Part shown: positions 923 through 62,909 of the stretch, one piece after another
Layout: the number at the start of each line of letters is the position of its first letter
Position numbering within the stretch: position 1 is the first letter of the stretch
Assembly (NCBI GenBank): GCA_022844135.1
Contig: JALHMG010000008.1
Location: 1-64,000, forward strand
DNA length: 64,000 nucleotides
From: Lysobacterales bacterium
GTDB lineage: Bacteria; Pseudomonadota; Gammaproteobacteria; Xanthomonadales; SZUA-5
Direction of reading: 5' to 3'
Position numbers and translations under genes: made by a program
The notes under the pieces: generated by a model
What the model saw: the letters and a program-made list of their open reading frames with translations, nothing else
Databases searched by the model: none
What the model was told of the DNA's origin: nothing

Positions 923-3900
923 ATGTCAGCGACGAATAAATCAAATAGCCCGGCCAAAGCGGAGAAAGCAAAACCGGGTCCTGCAGAAGAAAAAAAAATC
1001 GATCCGATCGAACGGCAGCTCGAAAAGGATCTTCATAAATGGCCCTACGCAACCGACACAATATATCAAAACCCCGATCCCGAACTACTGAAAGGTCACA
1101 CAAACTGGCTGTTAAGTCGCGCTATCAATACTAAAAGGCTCGTACTTTTTGCGGGCTCTGGCCTGAGTGCTGCTTATGGGCAGCCGTCCTGGAAGAGCTT
1201 TGTCGGAGAAATCGTTAGCCTATCAAAGGACCGCGAGATCTCCTTTCTGAAAACTAAACCATCCAGAACCAAACGCATTGCCGTACGTCGAGCTGCGGCT
1301 ACTCGGGACCATCTAATAACGGCCGCCAATGATCGACCTGAAACATTAGTACCAACTCTCCAGATTTGCCAATATATATATGAACTGACGGGTGGAGCGG
1401 CCGACTTTAGAAAAGCTGTGGCAAAGGTTTTTGCAGAAAACCCAATGGATCGCGACCGATCACCGCAGATCCACGATCCACTCCAACAACTCTGGCGAGA
1501 ACTCGGAATAGTTAAATTCCTCACCGTAAACTACGATAACGCCATTGAAAACTTCCTGATGCGAGAGAATGTGCGTATTGATCAAGACGGTTTTCTGGAG
1601 CAAGAATCCCCCGGTAATACAGGGGCTTTTTTGACCTCAACCTATAGATCCCAAAGCTTGGATGAATCAACGCTCGGCGACCTAATAGCATTTTCAGTTT
1701 CAGAGCGTCCAGATCAGACGCAAGTTTTCCATCTCCATGGACACGTAGACCAGAAATCCACTGCGTCTCGAAGACTATCCTCTTTGATAGTCACAGAGCG
1801 AGACTATCAAGCCCGCTACGCACAAGCCCACCCCAGGCACTCCAGCCTCGACTGCGCGATGAAGATTGCACTTACGTCGAACCCAATGCTTTTGGTAGGG
1901 ATCGGGCTGAACGAAGATGATATTCTTAGACCACTTCGACAGGCTCTAGAAGACGGAGCGCCTCTTTCTGATCGCCTAATTGTTGCTCTAATGCCCCAGT
2001 GGGATGACAACGACGCAATACTGCATCCTCATAGGTACCTAAACCGTTACGGGATATACAGTGTGTATTATGGCGGATCTGACCTCTCCCGGGTTTACCA
2101 GGAACTAAAGGCGCTTGGGAAGAGCAGTAAGGTTGCAATAAAAACACTTAATTCAGCCGATTCCTTGAAAAACCTTCTTCACAACTCGATTCTGGATGAT
2201 ACTGAAAAACGGCGTATATTGGCGATCGAAAAGCCAAATTTATTGCTCAGAGAGCTGATTCCGAGGGACGAACTAAACCGTCCGTTTACGATTGACGCGA
2301 GTCTAGATAGGGCTCTTGCTCGCAACTTGCAACTTGGCGCCAGAGAATTGGAGCGCTTGCAAATGCTGGCAACTGGACTTGCGTTGCGAATTAAGCTCAA
2401 TGATGCAATATGCCAACATAGGGACTGGTTAGCAAGATGGCAAGCGCCAACGCCAGCAAGAGTTCCTGCTTTGTTCAACCACACCAGAGCAGATTTCCAA
2501 ACGGGACATGAAGAGAACATTACGGGACCGAGGCAAACTATAATTGTGAGCCGACATGCTCAGCGCCTCGCAAGCTTTCCATTTGACGACCGATACCCTC
2601 ATCGTCGATTTTATAGTAACCTGCCATCGCAAACGTTTGAACGTTTTTTCGATGACTTGGCTAAACCCAAACTTGACCGAACGCCAAACCTGATAGTTGT
2701 GAATGCGCCTCGGGGCACTGGCAAGGGACACTTCGCAACGGCGCTATTGAACCCAGATCGAATCGATCGGCTCGCGCGAGCACTTGGGCGTGATCAGTAT
2801 GATCGAGTCGCCTACTTTAGCCTTGGAACAGCATCTCAAGTTGGCAGTGTGATTGATGGGCTTAACAGCTTCCTGGCGGGTGCCTGTGGGAATGCTAACG
2901 AAGATAGGAGCGGTATTTCGAGTTCTTACGAAAGCATGTCGCGACTTGCACAGACGCGGCATCTGCTTGAAAGCGTTAAGCGAGGGCGTCACCTCCTGAT
3001 AATTGGGTCAATCCATCGACTACTTCAGGATGGTGGTTTCCCAAAAAATTCCCACCTCGGTCGCTTTTTGACATGTCTTCTAGAGAATGACAACAGATTG
3101 ATCGACATTGTAGTTACTGGCGACTTCAGGTTGGTTTCCTATGCATCGGCAATGGGGCGATCGTCCAAAAGTATAAGCGAGACTTATTTTCATGTGGGTG
3201 AAAAAGACCGCAGATCCCGAGCTGTTGCAAACAGCGCCATTTTCGAGCTTCTCCGAAAACAGAAGCACGTCTTTGTCCAACTCCAGCGCGCAAATCATTT
3301 TTGGCTACTCAGGTATTTTTTTCCACACCTTTCGGCGCTTTTTAAGGCCGACGTGAACTCATTATCGCTCGATAGTTTTAGACGCGAGGTGCGCGCAGAG
3401 ATTGAAAACTACAGAATCTCTCAACCCACTTGGATGGTTCACACAGGAAAACCGCGGTCTGATGTAGAGGGATGCAGCGAGTTCCACGATATTTTGACTG
3501 AACTATGGAAATTGTTGGAAGGGAATCGGTATAGCTTTACGCTACTGGCGGCCTGTTGTGATATCGGGGCTGGTGATTCTAAATCTGAAGGAACGCTCAT
3601 CTTTGAAGAGAAAAAGATCCACAAGCAACGCTCTTGTATTCTCAGCTTTCTTCGTAAGGTTAAACTTGAACTGAGCGGCGCTAGGCCTGCGGCTAGGCAT
3701 CAGAAGCTGGTTTCACTTGTCCTAGAAGAGTATGAGCTCCGTCACAGAGAGCGGAAGAACTCGCTGGATTTCTCGATTCAGAGGTGCATTCTATGGCACC
3801 TGGCAGCTATGGACCAGCCCGTCGAACTCGAAGTTCTGGCTGGATGCGCTGGCATTCGTGATGCTATTCGTGTTAGGGGCAAATCAGTTAAGGCGAAAGT

Positions 3901-5590
3901 GAAACCCGGCGATTCAATTGCTATTTTGAGAGCGGCGGTAGAGGATTTGGTTTACAGGTGCCTTGTGATTGAATTCTGCCCATTTAAAGATGGTGATATG
4001 GGCTGTGGTACCGACGAAACGCATGGGGCTCCCATAGCAGTATCATTCGGAACTCGATATTCGGTACACAGATCGATTCAGCAGTTCGCGCTGTCTCATC
4101 TGGGGGGTATGTATGCGGAGTTTACGGAGAGCGATCCACTTACTGTTTCTATTTATGCTACGCAACCGAATGATTTGCCCTCGTTGACTAGTGAGAGCTA
4201 TGTTCAATTGCGAGATCTCGTGAGTTGTCTGACAGGTTTTCCGGAATCTGATAGAGCAGAACTTTTTCACGAAAAGGACTGCAGAGATCGAGACCTGCCG
4301 GAACTCCAGTCACTTAAGATAAGGGCTGCGCTGGGTGTCTTGCGAAGTGTGTTTTCTTGTGCGGTTTTGCATCGGCAGGCAGTTTATTCTCGAGTCGAAA
4401 CTGCCGGGAGGAACCGGCGTGTTGGATTGATCGAGGAGCATCGTCGTCAGGTATTCTGGCTAATCAACAGGACCTTCGATCTCGCGCGGAGCCGTGATAA
4501 AGAGAGAATTGCAAAAGAACCTGGAAAAACTATATCTAGTGATCTAGTGCAAAGCGATTATTGCCCATTGTATCGTGAGGAGCTCGTATGGGTTCTCAAT
4601 GAGTGTGGGGTGTTGAGTTACACTCAGGGTAGGTTGCACGACTCTATTGGGTTGCTTGATCGGGCGATGTTTCACGCTGAAGAGCTAGAACGCGGTGAGT
4701 TTGGCGGACTCAAAGCTAGAGTCGGTTTGAATAGAGTTGCGGTTGATATAGATCGGGGGCGCTTCAAGGAAGCCTTACGCCATCTGGATCGGATTTCGGC
4801 AACTCCAGATGAGACTCCTGTATTGCACCGACTCGCGGATTGCTATCGAGGCCTCGTTTTTCATTTAAAGGGTCGGCTCGATGAAGCGTTCGAGTGCTAT
4901 CACCGTGCTCTGCACGGACTTCATTCGGTGAGAACAGCTGCAAAGGGTTCAGAGGCGCCGAAGCGATATTCGGACTTGGGCTTACTCAGCCTGGGTCGGG
5001 CGAGAGCAGCAGCCATTACAACGCGTCATCTCGCGGATCTTTACCGACTGGAGCGGCGATATGATGATTCAGATCGGACGCTTACCGAGGCGCTGCACCT
5101 TGCGCAAGAGGGGAAGTACGAGGATATTCGGCACTCGATTCTTCTTGCACGGGTTCGTCTAACTCTAGCTCGATTGGGTACGCTTCCTTCTTGGCAAGAA
5201 CATATGCGGGATGCCCAGGCTGCGATGCTTGAGGTTGAGCATTACGCGCGTGAGATGGGAATACCTAGGCTTGAGTCGGAGATTTTGGAACTTCGGGCCC
5301 AGTTTCAGCTACGCGGTGGCGATCTACAGAGTGCAAGGGATTTCGCGTGTCGTGCAATTGAAATCGCGAATCTCCATGGATTGCTGCTACGCAAAATGCA
5401 ATGCATGAACGTCTTGGCGAAGGCCTTGTACGGCCTGAAGGAGTATGATCAAGCACGCTCAATAGCAATGGCGTCTTTGCAGATGGCGGAGCAAGTGGAT
5501 TACCACTGTCTCTATGCGGACGCGCATAGCCTCGTAGTTAAGCTCGAAGCGCATCGCCAAACGTCTGGTGAGAAAGAGGTTCATAGGTAG
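923..5590 (+). CDS. SIR2-STAND-TPR protein, candidate anti-phage NADase
   Basis: About 1555 residues from ATG 923; the frame is open back to a GTG at 839, and neither start has a strong ribosome site. An N-terminal SIR2-like fold spans roughly residues 70-390: FAGSGLSAAYG near 76, TVNYDNA near 200 and HLHGHVD near 269 match the NAD-binding and catalytic motifs of SIR2 proteins. A P-loop, PRGTGKGH, lies near 595, as in STAND NTPases. The expected Walker B strand near 689 reads LLIIGSIH and has no acidic residue. From about 1215 to the end the sequence is helical repeats of TPR type. SIR2-STAND proteins are known to sense phage proteins and deplete NAD (the Avs5-like and DSR groups), so a defence role is inferred. 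The gene is more A/T-rich than the flanking chromosome, which suggests transfer. A conserved companion gene follows about 240 bases downstream on the same strand. Confidence 0.8.
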   Translation: MSATNKSNSPAKAEKAKPGPAEEKKIDPIERQLEKDLHKWPYATDTIYQNPDPELLKGHTNWLLSRAINTKRLVLFAGSGLSAAYGQPSWKSFVGEIVSLSKDREISFLKTKPSRTKRIAVRRAAATRDHLITAANDRPETLVPTLQICQYIYELTGGAADFRKAVAKVFAENPMDRDRSPQIHDPLQQLWRELGIVKFLTVNYDNAIENFLMRENVRIDQDGFLEQESPGNTGAFLTSTYRSQSLDESTLGDLIAFSVSERPDQTQVFHLHGHVDQKSTASRRLSSLIVTERDYQARYAQAHPRHSSLDCAMKIALTSNPMLLVGIGLNEDDILRPLRQALEDGAPLSDRLIVALMPQWDDNDAILHPHRYLNRYGIYSVYYGGSDLSRVYQELKALGKSSKVAIKTLNSADSLKNLLHNSILDDTEKRRILAIEKPNLLLRELIPRDELNRPFTIDASLDRALARNLQLGARELERLQMLATGLALRIKLNDAICQHRDWLARWQAPTPARVPALFNHTRADFQTGHEENITGPRQTIIVSRHAQRLASFPFDDRYPHRRFYSNLPSQTFERFFDDLAKPKLDRTPNLIVVNAPRGTGKGHFATALLNPDRIDRLARALGRDQYDRVAYFSLGTASQVGSVIDGLNSFLAGACGNANEDRSGISSSYESMSRLAQTRHLLESVKRGRHLLIIGSIHRLLQDGGFPKNSHLGRFLTCLLENDNRLIDIVVTGDFRLVSYASAMGRSSKSISETYFHVGEKDRRSRAVANSAIFELLRKQKHVFVQLQRANHFWLLRYFFPHLSALFKADVNSLSLDSFRREVRAEIENYRISQPTWMVHTGKPRSDVEGCSEFHDILTELWKLLEGNRYSFTLLAACCDIGAGDSKSEGTLIFEEKKIHKQRSCILSFLRKVKLELSGARPAARHQKLVSLVLEEYELRHRERKNSLDFSIQRCILWHLAAMDQPVELEVLAGCAGIRDAIRVRGKSVKAKVKPGDSIAILRAAVEDLVYRCLVIEFCPFKDGDMGCGTDETHGAPIAVSFGTRYSVHRSIQQFALSHLGGMYAEFTESDPLTVSIYATQPNDLPSLTSESYVQLRDLVSCLTGFPESDRAELFHEKDCRDRDLPELQSLKIRAALGVLRSVFSCAVLHRQAVYSRVETAGRNRRVGLIEEHRRQVFWLINRTFDLARSRDKERIAKEPGKTISSDLVQSDYCPLYREELVWVLNECGVLSYTQGRLHDSIGLLDRAMFHAEELERGEFGGLKARVGLNRVAVDIDRGRFKEALRHLDRISATPDETPVLHRLADCYRGLVFHLKGRLDEAFECYHRALHGLHSVRTAAKGSEAPKRYSDLGLLSLGRARAAAITTRHLADLYRLERRYDDSDRTLTEALHLAQEGKYEDIRHSILLARVRLTLARLGTLPSWQEHMRDAQAAMLEVEHYAREMGIPRLESEILELRAQFQLRGGDLQSARDFACRAIEIANLHGLLLRKMQCMNVLAKALYGLKEYDQARSIAMASLQMAEQVDYHCLYADAHSLVVKLEAHRQTSGEKEVHR

Positions 5591-5830
5591 CAGGACCTCG
5601 AGTTTGCGATAGCCGTACGTCGAGGCGTCTGCTCTGATAATTGGCGTTTCGTTGCGAGCTGACAGGAGGTATCGATGCTTGTCCGAGTGGGCCAATTGAG
5701 TCCTCGACTGGTTGGACGGCTGCATCGTTAGGTTCCGATTATCACTGGATGTCGTGCCGTTCCTCTTTAGATTCGGCTGGTCCGAAGACCTCACGGCAGG
5801 TCATAGTCCCTGAAGTCCTCGCCTACGGCG

Positions 5831-7321
5831 ATGGAGTGCACCTTGTCAGATTCTGGAACGACACCTTCTGAGCGCTACCTCCAACATTTGGGGAGGACTT
5901 CCTTTCTCTCGTTGTGGAGCCACGGAAATCCCTATACGACAGAGGGGATACGCGCCGGAAAGGGAGTTGGTAAGGAACTCTGCGATCTGTTAGTTGTATT
6001 CGGGAACGACATCGTCATATTCTCAGACAAGTACGTCAACTTCAGTCAGGTTGTTGAGCTGAGTGTGGCTTGGTCACGTTGGTACAGGAAAGCTGTGGCG
6101 AAATCGGCTCAGCAGCTAATTGGAGCTGAAGCGTGGATTCGTCGCTTTCCTTCTCAGGTCTTTGCTGATCCTTACTGTCAGTGTTCCCTGCCGGTGAGAA
6201 TTCCTACCGGTCCAGAAATGCGAGTACACCGAGTATGTGTTGCACTTGGTGCTTACGATGCTTGTCGAAGATTTTATGGTGGCGGTAGCATTGGAAGCCT
6301 CATGATTAATTCCGGCCTGAACGGAATCGATGAGCATACGAAGCCATTCACGGTTGGTAATGTCCTCCCAGAGAAGGGTTTTGTGCACGTTTTTGATGAT
6401 TTCTCGCTTACACAGATTCTCAACGAGCTTGACACGGCAAGTGATTTTATTTCATACCTCGTGGCCCGTGAGGATTTTCTGTCAGCGGAAAAACCGGTTG
6501 TGATTTCCGCTGGTGAGGAACAGCTTCTGGCGATCTATCTGACAAACACAGACGTCGATGGAAATCACGCTTTCGTCCTTTCGACAACCGGAGATCCTGA
6601 GGTAGTTTTCCTAGATGAAAGCTTCTGGGATTCAATGGTTTCTAATCCTCAGTACGGACGAAAAAAGGAGGCGGATCGCGTAAGCTACGTTTGGGATCGG
6701 TTGATCGAGCACTTCATATCATTCGGCGAACATGGAGAAAGGCGGAGCCAAGATTTTGAGTTTGCGTATCGGTTAATGGCCTCTGAGCCCCGCACCAGAC
6801 GCCGGCAGCTTGGTCACGCTTTGCAAGATCTGATGATCTCGACGCCCGTCGAACAGCGTGCAGTTCGCGTCGTCTTTTCCTCGGATGTTTCTGAAAAAGT
6901 ATTTGTCTTCTTGATTTGCCCCGTGCAGAATGGTTTGACTTACGCCGTTGATCGAAAGCGGCGGCAAGAGATGCTTTTGGCCTACTGCAATGTTGCAAAG
7001 CTACGCTTCAACGACTCAAATTATATAATAGGCATTGCTATTGATCCTCGTGATTCAGACGAAGTTTCTGCAGACCTTATAGCGCTTGATGTCTCAGGGT
7101 GGGGTGAGGTTGATTTCGAGAGAGCTCAGGCGTTGCAACGGGAGGCAAAAATATTGCTCGATGACAAAATTCGGGTCCGAATCGGGCGAACATCTGAATA
7201 TCCTGAGCACCGAAAATTACCTGTCAAGCAGGCCAAAAACAGTAATCGGGCGGAGCGCAATAAAGAGAATCGCAAACAGATGCAGCGCGCGAGTCGTCGT
7301 CGCAACCGAAAAAAGCGTTGA
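5831..7321 (+). CDS. Conserved companion protein of unknown function, nuclease-like N-terminus
   Basis: 496 residues from ATG 5831, on the same strand as the SIR2-STAND gene and 240 bases after it. No named domain is recognised with certainty. Residues 47-67 hold GKELCDLLVV followed by a second hydrophobic strand ending IFSDK. This pattern of helix glutamate, strand aspartate, then strand ending in lysine resembles the core of PD-(D/E)xK or NERD-type nucleases, although the residue two before the lysine is serine rather than D/E. The middle contains a glycine-rich GGGS turn and a GFVHVFDD strand. The last 30 residues are extremely basic (RRRNRKKR at the end), as in nucleic-acid-binding tails. 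I recall similar unnamed proteins in many bacteria, but give no family name. Base composition matches the preceding gene rather than the core chromosome. Confidence 0.65.
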   Translation: MECTLSDSGTTPSERYLQHLGRTSFLSLWSHGNPYTTEGIRAGKGVGKELCDLLVVFGNDIVIFSDKYVNFSQVVELSVAWSRWYRKAVAKSAQQLIGAEAWIRRFPSQVFADPYCQCSLPVRIPTGPEMRVHRVCVALGAYDACRRFYGGGSIGSLMINSGLNGIDEHTKPFTVGNVLPEKGFVHVFDDFSLTQILNELDTASDFISYLVAREDFLSAEKPVVISAGEEQLLAIYLTNTDVDGNHAFVLSTTGDPEVVFLDESFWDSMVSNPQYGRKKEADRVSYVWDRLIEHFISFGEHGERRSQDFEFAYRLMASEPRTRRRQLGHALQDLMISTPVEQRAVRVVFSSDVSEKVFVFLICPVQNGLTYAVDRKRRQEMLLAYCNVAKLRFNDSNYIIGIAIDPRDSDEVSADLIALDVSGWGEVDFERAQALQREAKILLDDKIRVRIGRTSEYPEHRKLPVKQAKNSNRAERNKENRKQMQRASRRRNRKKR

Positions 7322-7449: not shown

Positions 7450-7893
7450 TTAATCAAATAGAGCGCGACATCTCTTCGTATTGCCGAATCTGCCGAAATA
7501 GGCACTCCAGCGAGTCAACAGTCGATGCAGATGAAACCATGCGCGGCAATGCTCCGCCACGATCTGTGCTTTGGCTTTCTCATCGCTATCCAAATCCGGA
7601 TGGAAGAAGTGAACCATCTTGTTTCGATGGTTTGCCATAGCGCGAAAGCCATCGTAGGCGTCCCCAACGTCCTCGCCTGCAACATTGCGAAGCCGCGATC
7701 TGGATTCATCCAGCGTGACCGAAACGAAATCACCTGCCATGAACTTCGTCAGGTTCGCTTGCTCAGGTTTCGAGACAGTTAACGGCCAGCGCTCCTTCAT
7801 CTGTCGCGCCCTTAGGTGTACTTCCACGGCCGCGGAGAAGTGGATGACTGAATACTTGGGATCCCCGTCGAACTCCTCAATGCCACGCTCCAA
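7450..7893 (-). pseudogene. HEPN-domain protein, probably decayed
   Basis: The open frame begins at a TTG (7893) and encodes 147 residues. Residues 90-95 read RNKMVH, the R-x4-H signature of HEPN ribonucleases, with asparagine right after the arginine as is common. The region before it (PKYSVIHFSAAVEV) looks like the first HEPN helix. In the same frame upstream, an ATG at 7932 encodes MSHEAVFE, then TAA (7908-7906), then CLRFLERGIEEFD. The natural N-terminus therefore appears to be cut off by one stop codon. The protein also ends abruptly after FGRFGN with an unrelated-looking tail. It faces the companion gene across a 128-base gap and lies just downstream of cphA. An inactive remnant of a defence or toxin gene is most likely; re-initiation at TTG is possible. 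Confidence 0.55.
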
Positions 7894-58204: not shown

Positions 58205-58668
58205 TGCGTTTCCCCCTGAAAGCGACGCAAACTCTATCCGACTCACTGTAATGCGCAACTTAAGGCCGCGTTTGCAAACCAGTTCCGCATTTCCAGCTAC
58301 GCCATCGGCCGCCATCCTGGCGACTCGCCGTTCTGAGGACGCGCTGCGCGGCCTGCACGGCATCCAGGCGCAGCGAAATTCTGCGATCAGCATTCCGAGC
58401 TATGGCGAATCCTTGGCAGTGGTCTGGTCTCTGGTCCGTTCGCCCAGGCGTGAGAATTGTGCGCCGCCGCCAGCGCGTAGTCGACCGATGCCTGTCGCAT
58501 AGAAGCGGCTGGTGTCGCTCAGATCTGCGCCGCGCCGGAATCGAGATTCGCTATGTTGGAAGCTGGATCGTGAGAATCGAAGACGTTACCGCTCTTGCCA
58601 GAATGGCGGCCTGTGCCGACCGTTCGGCTGAGCTGCCTTGTTCTCAGGAACGGCCGTATCCGCTGCCA
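58205..58668. other. Gap before the toxin-associated cluster
   Basis: About 460 bases with no supported gene. Two overlapping plus-strand frames lack motifs and a ribosome site. It probably includes the promoter of the propeller gene on its left side and the end of a cluster of small minus-strand genes on its right. Confidence 0.5.
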
Positions 58669-59196
58669 TTATCGGTCAAGGCCATCTGTCGCCAGTGAAC
58701 TACTTTTGCGACGATTTATTTGGTTTCTTGCCGTATCCGCCAGGATCGGATCGCCGCTCGCCGATAATTCAGTCAAAGCAGAATCCGCCTCGGGTCCCGC
58801 AATGCCGCCAATAGCCCAAATGGCCTTGACGGCCAAAGCACGGCTTTCATCATGATCTAGGTACTCAGGTACCCATTGTGTCGCGGCAGCTAGGGCCTTC
58901 ACAGCCCTAGGGGTCTTGAGGCGACCCAAGGCTGTAACAACGTCCTCGTGTTTGAAATGCCAACGCTCACCGCTTAAAAACAGAAGAGTGTTCAAATGTT
59001 GATCCGAAAACCCAAATGTGTAACCCACGATTAAGGCCCACTCGACATCTTCGGAATTTTTCGATCTGATTGCATCATTGAGTAGCTCGGCGCATAGAAT
59101 ACGCCCGTCAGAACTATGAAAGCGCTCAAGAAAATCAGCGGGTTCTATCTTTTTTGTTGCTAGTGCGTAAACAAGCTGCCGCTCTTCCTTTGTCAT
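58669..59196 (-). CDS. HEAT-repeat protein, immunity-like
   Basis: 175 residues from ATG 59196. The middle and end have HEAT-like helical repeats: DVVTALGRLKTPRAVKALAAA and ALAVKAIWAIGGIAGPEADSALTELSASGDPIL. Proteins of this size and pattern are found as immunity proteins in Rhs and other polymorphic-toxin loci. It is the last of a run of small minus-strand genes downstream of an Rhs tip. No toxin partner lies next to it. A direct function is not known. Confidence 0.6.
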   Translation of the reverse strand: MTKEERQLVYALATKKIEPADFLERFHSSDGRILCAELLNDAIRSKNSEDVEWALIVGYTFGFSDQHLNTLLFLSGERWHFKHEDVVTALGRLKTPRAVKALAAATQWVPEYLDHDESRALAVKAIWAIGGIAGPEADSALTELSASGDPILADTARNQINRRKSSSLATDGLDR

Positions 59197-59350
59197 CGAG
59201 GCAACACCGAAAAGTTCAGGATTTTGTTATTAAAAATGTCTAGCGCAATGCCCCGTCCAAGTTGAATTTGGGCAACATCGCCCTCGCGCTCAAGATTCCA
59301 TCCTCCGCGGAAATCGCGGGCCGGTCGTCATATTGCGACCCAATATGCTG

Positions 59351-59674
59351 TCAATCGATTCCACGAATCTCGGCATTATCGACGTTCATGCACTTCTCGC
59401 GCCAGGCATCAAACGACTGAAAAATCCTGGTTTCTGGAAACCGTCCGTCCAGTTCCTTTTTGCCACTCCAGGTCAAGTGCACGACAGCGACGGCAGCAGA
59501 ACCTTCGATGTCAAACAAAACATCGTCGTTGTCAGACCGTTGGGCTATTGCGTTAGACCTAAGATTCCAAAGAACGTGATTCTCTGAAACTTCGCGTTCC
59601 AGCTCTTTCACAAGAATGTCTGAAAGCTGCCCAACGGAAACCCATGGAGCCAGAAATTCAATCTCCGTGTTCAT
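59351..59674 (-). CDS. Small conserved protein, candidate immunity protein
   Basis: 107 residues from ATG 59674. It has a short alpha/beta pattern with AVAVVHLTWSGKKELDGRFPETRIFQSFDAWREKCM. I recall similar proteins beside Rhs and contact-dependent toxins, so an immunity role is likely but not shown. It lies between the five-hairpin element and the HEAT gene. Confidence 0.55.
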   Translation of the reverse strand: MNTEIEFLAPWVSVGQLSDILVKELEREVSENHVLWNLRSNAIAQRSDNDDVLFDIEGSAAVAVVHLTWSGKKELDGRFPETRIFQSFDAWREKCMNVDNAEIRGID

Positions 59675-59706
59675 TTTTCTCGTGTCACCCTGTGCCTTAA
59701 ACTGTC

Positions 59707-59864
59707 TAGCAGGCTGTTGAGAAACAGCCTGCTAGCGCGAACCATGGATGGTTCGCACGTTGATCAAGCACGTAAGTGCTTGATCAATGGAGAGCGAGTC
59801 CGGACATGCGCCGGACTCGCGACTTGAGAAATGCACAGGAAGTGCGTTTCTCAACATCGTGCTA
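59707..59864. mobile_element. MITE-like element with five consecutive hairpins
   Basis: Imperfect terminal inverted repeats (TAGCAGGCTGTTGAG at 59707-59721; CTCAACATCGTGCTA at 59850-59864; 12 of 15 pair) enclose a chain of hairpins. The stems are 59707-59718 with 59723-59734, 59737-59745 with 59748-59756, 59760-59771 with 59776-59787, 59794-59803 with 59811-59820, and 59824-59836 with 59842-59854. Four of the five stems are perfect over 9-12 bases. The element overlaps the 3' end of the neighbouring gene. No transposase is encoded, so any movement must depend on a protein from elsewhere. Confidence 0.75.
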
Positions 59865-60370
59865 GACGTCAACTCGAAATCGTGCTCCCGCAACTGCCTG
59901 CCGCTTAGTTTTGCCATTTCGGAATCGGACAGCGGAATGATGTTGGGACTAAACGTTCGAATGTCGATCTCGCTATCTCCTATGAGATTCCGGAGGTGAT
60001 CGATGTTTGTGGGTGCTCTCAAATCAGTACTCAAGGACCGCGTGAACTCTTCCGGCGGCAAATACTCGTGATCTTGAACGTAATGCAATATGAGATCGGG
60101 GAAAGCAAAAAAGCAGTTCGGTTCACTTGCTAAAGCTATGAGATTTCTACTGCCAAGCGGAAGCTGATCTTCAAAGACTCGTTTCTTGCAAATAGGGCAA
60201 AGTCTAAATCCGCGAAACGAATCGAGTTCTACGTTGACAGAGCGCACAAATTTCTTCAATTGGGCAATATGATGAAACTTGCCTTTCGGATAATCCAATT
60301 CATCAATCCAACCCAACATTTTAATCGTTATGCCATTGAGAAAAAACGATTCGCCGTCTTTTATTAACAT
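59732..60370 (-). CDS. Zinc-finger-like small protein, C-terminus replaced by a mobile element
   Basis: 212 residues from ATG 60370. A CPIC motif (FRLCPICKKRVFEDQ) suggests a half zinc site, and the section LILHYVQDHEYLPPEEF resembles polymorphic-toxin immunity proteins with a HYVxxH-type stretch. From about residue 170 onward (about MLRNALPVHFSSRE) the frame lies inside the five-hairpin element, so the natural end of the protein has been replaced. It is part of the cluster downstream of the Rhs tip. It may still be made; its function is unknown. Confidence 0.55.
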   Translation of the reverse strand: MLIKDGESFFLNGITIKMLGWIDELDYPKGKFHHIAQLKKFVRSVNVELDSFRGFRLCPICKKRVFEDQLPLGSRNLIALASEPNCFFAFPDLILHYVQDHEYLPPEEFTRSLSTDLRAPTNIDHLRNLIGDSEIDIRTFSPNIIPLSDSEMAKLSGRQLREHDFELTSSTMLRNALPVHFSSRESGACPDSLSIDQALTCLINVRTIHGSR

Positions 60371-60569
60371 ATCACTCGTATCCTATTGAACATGCCGCCC
60401 AAATGAAGCACTGCGACTGAGTGCCCATCTCGCCATCAAGTTTCAAGGTACGCTGCGGAGCATCTGCGATCAGCCGATCGCTCTCGAGGATTGCGAGAAA
60501 CCGCCATCACCTGTAGCTAAGGTTCCAGAATGTACCGCCACGTCGCAACGATGACCGCTCCATTTTTCT
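60371..60569. other. Short gap in the immunity cluster
   Basis: About 200 bases with no supported gene. A frame from 60670 to 60470 overlaps the 79-residue gene out of frame and is probably a shadow. Confidence 0.5.
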
Positions 60570-60809
60570 TCACGATGCCCAAACTGCCATTTCCGGCAAC
60601 TCACCGCGCTGCCAATGCTGCCTAATCTTGTGCGCCGCGCGACTATAGAACCGCAGTTCGATTTCGCCATCAGCGATGGAAATCAACTGGGTCTCGTCCG
60701 TTTCCTTGCTTATGGTGAACGAACCAGATCTTTCGTCCGCAGTCGTGTACGAATAGGCAATGAGGCCATCTTTTTTGGCCATTTTCGAAATTTTCAAATA
60801 GAACACCAC
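60570..60809 (-). CDS. Small conserved protein, candidate immunity protein
   Basis: 79 residues from GTG 60809. The sequence GLIAYSYTTADERSGSFTISKETDET leads to KIRQHWQRGELPEMAVWAS. This pattern, with an HW near the end and a terminal WAS, is one I recall from small proteins next to Rhs toxins. A role as an orphan immunity protein is inferred from context only. Confidence 0.55.
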   Translation of the reverse strand: MVFYLKISKMAKKDGLIAYSYTTADERSGSFTISKETDETQLISIADGEIELRFYSRAAHKIRQHWQRGELPEMAVWAS

Positions 60810-60859
60810 TTTATTCTAATCCCGAAGGTTGTCGTGCTCGGTTCGCAGCATTGTATTAA

Positions 60860-61093
60860 TCACGATACGATTGGTTGAAAATCCCTTCGTATTTTGACTC
60901 GAACAGTCGAGCGACCCAGCAGTCTCGCCATCACAGACGGATTCTTGCCTTCGCTCAGACCCAACATCAACACGGCCCGTTCCTCGCTGCTCAGATGATT
61001 GTATTTTGTCCTATCGAAGCACCCTACCTGAAGTTGGGTGTTGCACTTGAAATTAGAGCCTAAGGTCAACCTAGCCATCCACGAACCCTCCAT
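60860..61093 (-). pseudogene. IS30-family transposase remnant
   Basis: The 77-codon frame contains YNHLSSEERAVLMLGLSEG followed by NPSVMARLLGRS, which matches the N-terminal helix-turn-helix of IS30-type transposases. The DDE catalytic region is absent and the frame ends after a few more codons. Its upstream 27 codons look unrelated. It shows that an insertion sequence once sat within the toxin-associated cluster. Confidence 0.7.
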
Positions 61094-61152
61094 GGCAAAG
61101 GCGGCATCGTCGGAAAGTCAGTGTTTGCTGCGTTCCCGTTCCTTGGCCCAGA

Positions 61153-61371
61153 CTAAATATCGCTTTTGTTGTCAGTTCTCATTCTCATGGAATTGTGAGC
61201 ACCGCACGTGGGGCATCTCATATGTCGCTCAATCAACGACGCGTCGGTTGGTGACGCTATGTCCAAGACCTCGAGAAAGTCATCCGACGATTCGGGGCAG
61301 ATGACCTTCACCGTTGGATCTTTGGCCAGGATCACCGCCGCCTGAACCCAAAGCATATTTTGCGACCTCAT
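61153..61371 (-). CDS. Candidate immunity protein coupled to the Rhs tip
   Basis: 72 residues from ATG 61371. The start overlaps the stop of the Rhs reading frame (ATGA), so translation is coupled. The sequence begins MRSQNMLWVQAAVILAKDP, then VKVICPE, and ends MRCPTCGAHNSMRMR, giving three cysteines in a zinc-ribbon-like arrangement. Immunity genes normally follow directly after Rhs toxins, so this is the best candidate for the cognate immunity protein. Confidence 0.65.
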   Translation of the reverse strand: MRSQNMLWVQAAVILAKDPTVKVICPESSDDFLEVLDIASPTDASLIERHMRCPTCGAHNSMRMRTDNKSDI

Positions 61372-62909
61372 AGCCCTAACCTCTTGGCGCCCCGTTCAGC
61401 AAAGTCAAATGCCGCAATTGTCTCCTCCGTCGCGAGGGACCTTGACACTCCATTTGTAGCCGTGCTGTGGCGTAGACGATAAAGCTCATGAAGCAAGGTC
61501 CGACCTAGCTCACCGTCGGAGCTGAATGCATTTCTCCCGAGTACAAAACCGTCGTCTCCGAACAAAGTCATGCCCGATGCCGGAAGGTCGGGCGCGTACA
61601 CGATCGTACGCGGTCCAACACTTATGGAAGCTTCCAAATTGGAGGCATGAGCCGCACGAAGTACACTCATCTGCGAAGAACCTAGAATCTCTGAGGCTTC
61701 CGAAAGCACCATCGCTTCGCTTGACGTAAAACCTCTAGCCAGATCATCCGTCGCCGATGCAGTCCCTGCCGCCCGACTCTCCAACCTCAATGCCACAAAT
61801 CCGGCAGAGCCCGGCGCCGCAGGGCTAAGTCCGGACGCAAGATCGGCCCCCATCCCCATCGTTTCGCTTCCGGTGAGACCAACTACTGCCTGGTTCACCA
61901 ACGACCGATGCGGAAATCCGGACGTAAACTCGAGCCATCCCGCTGCTGCTTGATCCGCACCCAATAGCGCCACTAGGAAACACGTTCCAGAACACGGATT
62001 CGGTGTACCGCCTGCAATTGCGCCGCCAGCGGCGGTAAGTCCTCCTCCCAGCATTCTCAAGACGCCCAACGCGCGTGTCCAGTTCGAAGCATCGCTTTGC
62101 TGTGAACGATTTTCTTGTGATCCCACGCGTTCAGGTGCGCGGTCATTTTGTGTGTAGCCACTCGGCGGCTGAGCAAGGTGTGCGCCGTTTGTATTCGCTT
62201 CGGGAGAGCCGGAAACGTAGGTTATTCGCAGGAAGTTGGGACCATAGCCGCCACACGAGGGAATTCTCGATCCCGTGTAGGTGACGCAGTACCCACTCGG
62301 ATCCGTCCCGCTCATCGGGTTGTTCATCAAGTACGAGTATGGATTAAGGCTCTGGCTGTTGGCTGGGAACTGGATGAACGGATCGACCGCGAGGAAACGA
62401 CCGAGTTGGTAGTCGTAGGTGCGGCCGTTCATGTGGATCAGACGGGTGTTGTCGAGGTGCTCGTGGTCGGTGAAACCGCGGTTTTGCGGGGGATCGAGAT
62501 CGAGGCGGCCACCGATGCGGTCGGTGAAATCTCCGTTGCGTGCTTTCCCGAAAGCGTCGAAGCTGCGGCGTTCGGTGATGGTGCCGGTTGCGTTGCTGAG
62601 CGCCACGGTGCTGCCCAGGCGATCGGTGTGGCGATAGGTCACCACTTTGATGCCCGTCGCGGCACTGGCGCCGGTGATGTTGACGATCATTCCGGGCAAG
62701 TGGTGGCGATGCTCAACGGCGCCCGCGCGGTAGTTCTTCTCGTATCCGCCTCGGCCGTAGAAAGTCTCCACACCATCGCTCTCGCGATGCCGGAATCGCT
62801 GTCCGTCAGGCGAATACGCGAACCGATCCATGCCGCCATTGATGCGCGTCACGCTCCACGGCAGGTTGTCGTGATCGTAAACCGCCGCAAGCGTGTTTCC
62901 ACCGACCTG
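61368..62909 (-). pseudogene. Rhs C-terminal tip fragment with toxin-like end, 5'-truncated
   Basis: Rhs-type sequence begins near 62909 (VGGNTLAAVYDHDNLPWSV) and runs about 510 codons. The Rhs core is recognisable by TYRHTDRLGSTVALSNATG, TYDYQLGRFLAVDPFIQ and LNPYSYLMNNPMSGTDPSGY, which closes the core. After it come about 300 residues of variable C-terminus ending with LGRTLLHELYRLRHS and LATEETIAAFDFAERGA, probably a toxin domain of unknown type; the HELYR stretch is not a full zinc HExxH motif. The frame extends 50 codons further upstream, but that part is an out-of-frame reading of the VOC gene. The shell-forming part is missing, so it is either a displaced tip for recombination into another Rhs gene or a dead fragment. 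Confidence 0.75.

Follow-up and report, generated by a model that had tools for sequence, protein, structure and literature searches.

A SIR2-STAND-type gene beside a nuclease-like gene of a widespread unnamed family: probably two independent genes in a small defence island

At the start of a contig from a Lysobacterales bacterium, two long genes follow each other on the forward strand, and the question they raise is whether they act together, as the two-gene defence system proposed by the first-pass annotation, or simply adjoin. In the window, as we call the whole stretch of 64,000 nucleotides analysed here, both lie in an AT-richer patch that is followed by a DUF3644 HEPN fragment and then by the core gene cphA. 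The GC content is 47-53% over the two genes (47-55% over 1-8 kb) against about 57-67% in the core at 8-58 kb, which bears out the earlier remark on their A/T-rich composition. A gap of 240 bp separates them, in which no promoter- or terminator-like site was found. Because the window starts at contig base 1, the defence island is seen from one side only. As far as genome comparison tells, the two genes do not form a two-gene system but adjoin by chance in this small island.

The upstream gene combines three modules in one chain:

923-5590, + strand: SIR2-STAND-TPR protein, predicted phage-sensing NADase of 1555 aa (open reading frame, SIR2_2, TPR models, homologues)
1115-2053, + strand: SIR2 effector region, residues ~65-377 (Pfam SIR2_2 at 199-377, PADLOC Dsr1/ThsA at 65-398, motifs)
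1148-1168, 1523-1537 and 1730-1741, + strand: motifs FAGSGLS (residues 76-82), TVNYD (201-205) and HLHG (270-273) within the SIR2 region
2705-2734, + strand: Walker-A-like P-loop APRGTGKGHF, residues 595-604, of a STAND-like NTPase (motif; GxGK/RG aligned in homologues)
4700-5497, + strand: predicted C-terminal TPR sensor region, residues ~1260-1525 (TPR_12, TPR_1, TPR_10, TPR_MalT; region well conserved among homologues)

The reading frame runs from the ATG at 923 to the stop ending at 5590 with zero internal stops, and an alternative GTG start at 839 would give a protein of 1583 aa. Length and motifs are thus as first described, and Pfam SIR2_2 (PF13289) matches at 1.5e-15. In PADLOC the SIR2 region finds Dsr1 (2.6e-8) and ThsA (4.3e-7), and its profile weakly matches the ThsA and KomC structures. 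The claimed SIR2-STAND-TPR architecture stands in its SIR2 domain, its P-loop and its TPRs, the last with a best E-value of 1.9e-6, just under Pfam's cut-off; it does not stand as a Pfam STAND assignment. An AAA model (AAA_22) matches weakly (0.075), and the Pfam STAND models, nSTAND3 (PF20720) included, give zero matches at E up to 0.5, nSTAND3 likewise against two homologues. We keep the STAND label because of the P-loop, its position between effector and repeats, and the homologues. With SIR2, P-loop NTPase and repeats in one chain, the protein belongs to the SIR2-STAND-type sensors in the broad sense and, judged by its sequence, is a rare, divergent member of this known phage-sensor type.

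Homologues are sparse, and those found are mainly alphaproteobacterial: two were met on plasmids, one of Methylobacterium and one of Azospirillum, and the remaining six carriers are genomes from a single other class. An alignment of four full or near-full homologues leaves N203, D205, H272 and G273 invariant; all four also have the glycine-rich P-loop and are well conserved towards the C-terminus. Elsewhere in the bacterium's own genome, a 174-aa ORF (contig C32, 60044-60622) matches a portion of the C-terminal TPR region at ~44% identity and is probably the remnant of a second copy.

Whether the pair is conserved can be asked from either gene. Starting from the downstream gene, the companion, no SIR2 gene stood beside it at any of 80 genome loci and 8 plasmid loci with flanks up to 10 kb; a phmmer search of the neighbouring ORFs with the window protein and a separate SIR2 motif scan were both empty. 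Of 46 companion-bearing records surveyed (42 genomes and 4 plasmids), 34 had no SIR2_2 gene at all, 30 of the 42 genomes among them, and the other 12 had copies elsewhere. Starting from the SIR2-STAND-TPR gene, none of the eight other carriers, two plasmids and six genomes, had a companion anywhere, in a search that had no positive control of its own, the same family being readily found in other scans. Within the same order, the companion occurs in 8 of 299 genomes and the SIR2-STAND-TPR gene in one, the two together in the window's own genome only; the ORFs around the companion in the other members included zero SIR2 genes, and in one member (L144) a simple gene caller missed the companion itself. 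The adjacency recurs in no other genome or record surveyed from either side, and we reject the conserved two-gene system. Companion homologues almost always occur without a SIR2-STAND gene, the very pattern that the first-pass annotation had named as telling against its proposal, and SIR2-STAND-TPR homologues occur without a companion.

The next ORF does not enlarge the system either:

7450-7893, - strand: DUF3644 HEPN-family ORF, 147 aa, with RNKMVH (R-x4-H) (PADLOC DUF3644 5e-47, HEC-08 7.7e-40)

DUF3644 is a HEPN family (PMC3710099). The HEC-08 match covers only positions 28-165 of 358, so the ORF looks truncated or frameshifted and is probably incomplete; for this and for its opposite strand we reject it as a third system gene and regard it as a neighbour. 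At the far end of the window a second AT-richer patch (~58600-61500, GC 47-58%) carries, both on the - strand, a DUF7919 protein (59732-60370) and a HEAT-repeat fragment (58669-59196).

The companion is the less familiar of the two genes:

5831-7321, + strand: companion, 496 aa, from a PD-(D/E)XK-like nuclease family that has no name and mostly occurs solo (open reading frame, relatives, AlphaFold2 model)
5969-6031, + strand: predicted catalytic stretch GKELCDLLVVFGNDIVIFSDK, with E49, D52, S65, D66 and K67 (73-homologue alignment; two adjacent model strands)
7184-7318, + strand: very basic C-terminal tail, which differs among family members (the last 45 residues contain 18 K/R)

The ORF is intact, and the nuclease-like N-terminus and basic tail attributed to it are borne out by the model, the invariant residues, the fold matches and the tail composition. 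Tails vary across the family, being basic in the window protein, SEC-C in 4 of 10 members of a first alignment, or absent. The core matches zero profiles in Pfam, PADLOC or NCBIfam, in which the SEC-C tails of some relatives alone are recognised, and sequence searches of the PDB with the companion or with a family profile returned nothing useful. The AlphaFold2 model, built with 73 relatives, has a pLDDT of 91 (92.5 for residues 9-222 alone), and its core order of helix, strand, strand, strand, helix, strand (H12-23, E30-32, E53-57, E60-68, H77-105, E131-139) fits the PD-(D/E)XK core layout. All 73 homologues share E14, E49, D52, S65, K67, W81, R83, W84 and Q95, and 72 of them have D or E at position 66. 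D52 and K67 are thus fixed, while residue 65 is Ser with the acid at 66, in contrast to the D...(D/E)xK of PD-(D/E)XK enzymes; with Ser where these have an acid, catalysis could be altered or lost.

A whole-length fold search gave zero significant matches and nothing clear beyond the N-terminal part; as the nuclease signal was diluted in it, the search was redone with residues 9-222. It returned McrC, R.BspD6I, HincII, Can2, Cdn1, a HerA-associated DUF and the RecBCD nuclease at E-values of 0.06-1. Solved-structure neighbours of the N-terminal part include viral cap-snatching endonucleases, and the named viral matches are largely PD-(D/E)XK, Cas4-like or RecE-like. Most top matches are PD-(D/E)XK members, but zero fall below E 0.001, so the assignment rests on the agreement of motif, layout and match list, which together point to an atypical PD-(D/E)XK nuclease.

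The companion family is broad, has no name in Pfam, PADLOC or NCBIfam, and is normally solo on plasmids, satellites, prophages and chromosomes. A single scan of genome contigs yielded 171 relatives; the 80 examined with flanks up to 10 kb include 59 whose upstream flank exceeds 5 kb. By record titles they span over a dozen phyla (Pseudomonadota, Bacteroidota, Cyanobacteriota, Acidobacteriota, Chloroflexota, Planctomycetota, Nitrospirota, Nitrospinota, Myxococcota, Bacillota, Verrucomicrobiota, Omnitrophota and several candidate phyla). The family is also present on 140 plasmid records, 90 of them predicted conjugative (IncN, IncHI1B and others), annotated at most as hypothetical or SEC-C among the rows listed. 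It was found in 0 of 50,697 phage records. A literature search on SEC-C/YecA proteins and phage, or naming the family accessions, brought up nothing relevant and no experimental record.

Most plasmid, satellite and E. coli loci that we read show the gene alone or among unrelated genes. On a Klebsiella plasmid (L008:5482-10843) a homologue sits between the primase-like and capsid genes of a satellite-like element. In a prophage of E. coli 210205630 (L130:10809-14650) another, placed between replication and late-control genes, has a gene for a restriction endonuclease on one side and one for a HEPN protein on the other; further E. coli copies lie on IncN-type plasmids and at the edge of a P4-like satellite. 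Three Xanthomonadaceae loci (L005:6228-11479, L019:5761-11479, L033:5754-11479) carry a conserved cassette in which a P-loop protein of 1.2-1.35 kaa is encoded directly upstream of the homologue. We reject a general rule of large NTPase plus companion, which would rest on these 3 related loci of ~90, the partner family being spread over other taxa.

The defence-like setting assumed at the outset is supported. In a rough comparison that counts families rather than genes, 135 companion-neighbour proteins match 329 PADLOC families, as against 57 for 93 control genes from only 13 random stretches of the same genomes, the control matches being largely due to one UvrD-type helicase. The models matched by the neighbours include TIR/Argonaute-associated, Gabija-like, PARIS-like, DRT and Fic ones. 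Phage integrase is their commonest Pfam match (8 of 135), a sign of mobility rather than of defence itself.

These settings also weigh on what the companion does. It could be a housekeeping protein of mobile elements, such as an anti-restriction, plasmid-maintenance or nucleic-acid-processing factor; its frequency on plasmids, satellites and prophages and the silence of the literature would fit, but we think this unlikely given its presence on chromosomes across so many phyla with varied neighbours, its absence from the phage records, its conserved nuclease-like core and the defence models matched around it. We are similarly doubtful that the domain is catalytically dead and binds nucleic acid only. 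Such a loss would fit the Ser that all 73 homologues have at position 65, where an acid is usual, and the lack of a significant fold match; against it, E14, E49, D52, K67 and Q95 are invariant and the acid at 66 nearly so, as expected of a kept active site.

A true two-gene system recently assembled in this lineage, with the companion serving the SIR2-STAND sensor as an accessory nuclease or as its regulator, would account for the common strand, the 240 bp gap in which neither a promoter- nor a terminator-like site was found and the similar base composition, and the xanthomonad loci, where a companion directly follows the gene of another large P-loop protein, indicate that companions can follow large NTPase genes. 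We nevertheless judge it highly improbable: the genomes and records surveyed hold no second example of the pair in either direction, and the xanthomonad partner has a wide family of its own, on 40 plasmid records against the companion's 140 and in largely different organisms.

We conclude with good confidence that the two genes, one for a SIR2-STAND sensor and one for a predicted stand-alone nuclease of an unnamed family, are carried independently of each other in a small defence island beside cphA; most likely they are two independent anti-phage genes, one depleting NAD and one cutting nucleic acid. In the large protein, the C-terminal TPRs would bind a phage product, the P-loop module would then switch or oligomerise, and the N-terminal SIR2 domain, as its family suggests, would hydrolyse NAD+. 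The companion's atypical PD-(D/E)XK core (E14, E49-x2-D52, S65-[D/E]66-K67) would cut invading nucleic acid, while its C-terminal half and variable tail, basic, SEC-C or absent, may serve recognition or regulation; its nuclease activity, its target and its anti-phage role we infer, as we do the NAD loss caused by the large protein, whereas the architecture, the lack of pairing, the spread and mobility of the family and the resemblance in fold are shown by the analysis itself.

Recognising that the claimed system is absent as a conserved unit spares a false lead. What deserves follow-up is the companion family, which is conserved across phyla, lacks a name in the libraries, lies where anti-phage genes gather and is small enough for one-gene testing. 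The companion might even found a very widespread single-gene family of anti-phage nucleases not described before, which travels on satellites, prophages and conjugative plasmids and combines a variant of the active site (E...E-x2-D...S-[D/E]-K) with a new C-terminal module, a proposal that we put forward tentatively and rate slightly below an even chance.

Among known proteins, the best fold neighbours of companion residues 9-222 are McrC, Can2, the HerA-associated DUF, R.BspD6I and other PD-(D/E)XK nucleases, from which it differs by its S-D/E-K motif and to which it is linked at the modest E-values given above. The PD-(D/E)XK defence proteins validated by DefensePredictor (PMC13092281), compared by description, are likewise nuclease-like and come from E. 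coli accessory DNA. For the large protein, the resemblance to the DSR1, ThsA and KomC SIR2 NADases is confined to the SIR2 region. STAND NTPases with SIR2, TIR or nuclease N-termini and C-terminal repeats have been reported in P4 satellite hotspots (PMC9122126), and the window protein, likened to them by description, has the same modular effector-STAND-repeat design. A close parallel is Avs5 (AVAST type 5, SIR2-STAND), a single protein with an N-terminal SIR2 domain (PF13289), an NTPase and C-terminal repeats including TPRs, in whose tested members the repeats sense a phage protein and SIR2 hydrolyses NAD+ (PMC12931631). The window protein shares the PF13289 effector and the C-terminal helical repeats; it differs in lacking an nSTAND3 match despite its P-loop, in its sparse, mainly alphaproteobacterial homologues and in effector and sensor roles that are predicted. 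As nSTAND3, the distinguishing Avs5 feature tested, fails, we class it among the SIR2-STAND-type sensors rather than as Avs5; by analogy, it would still work by an Avs5-like design, in which the repeats sense and SIR2 removes NAD+.
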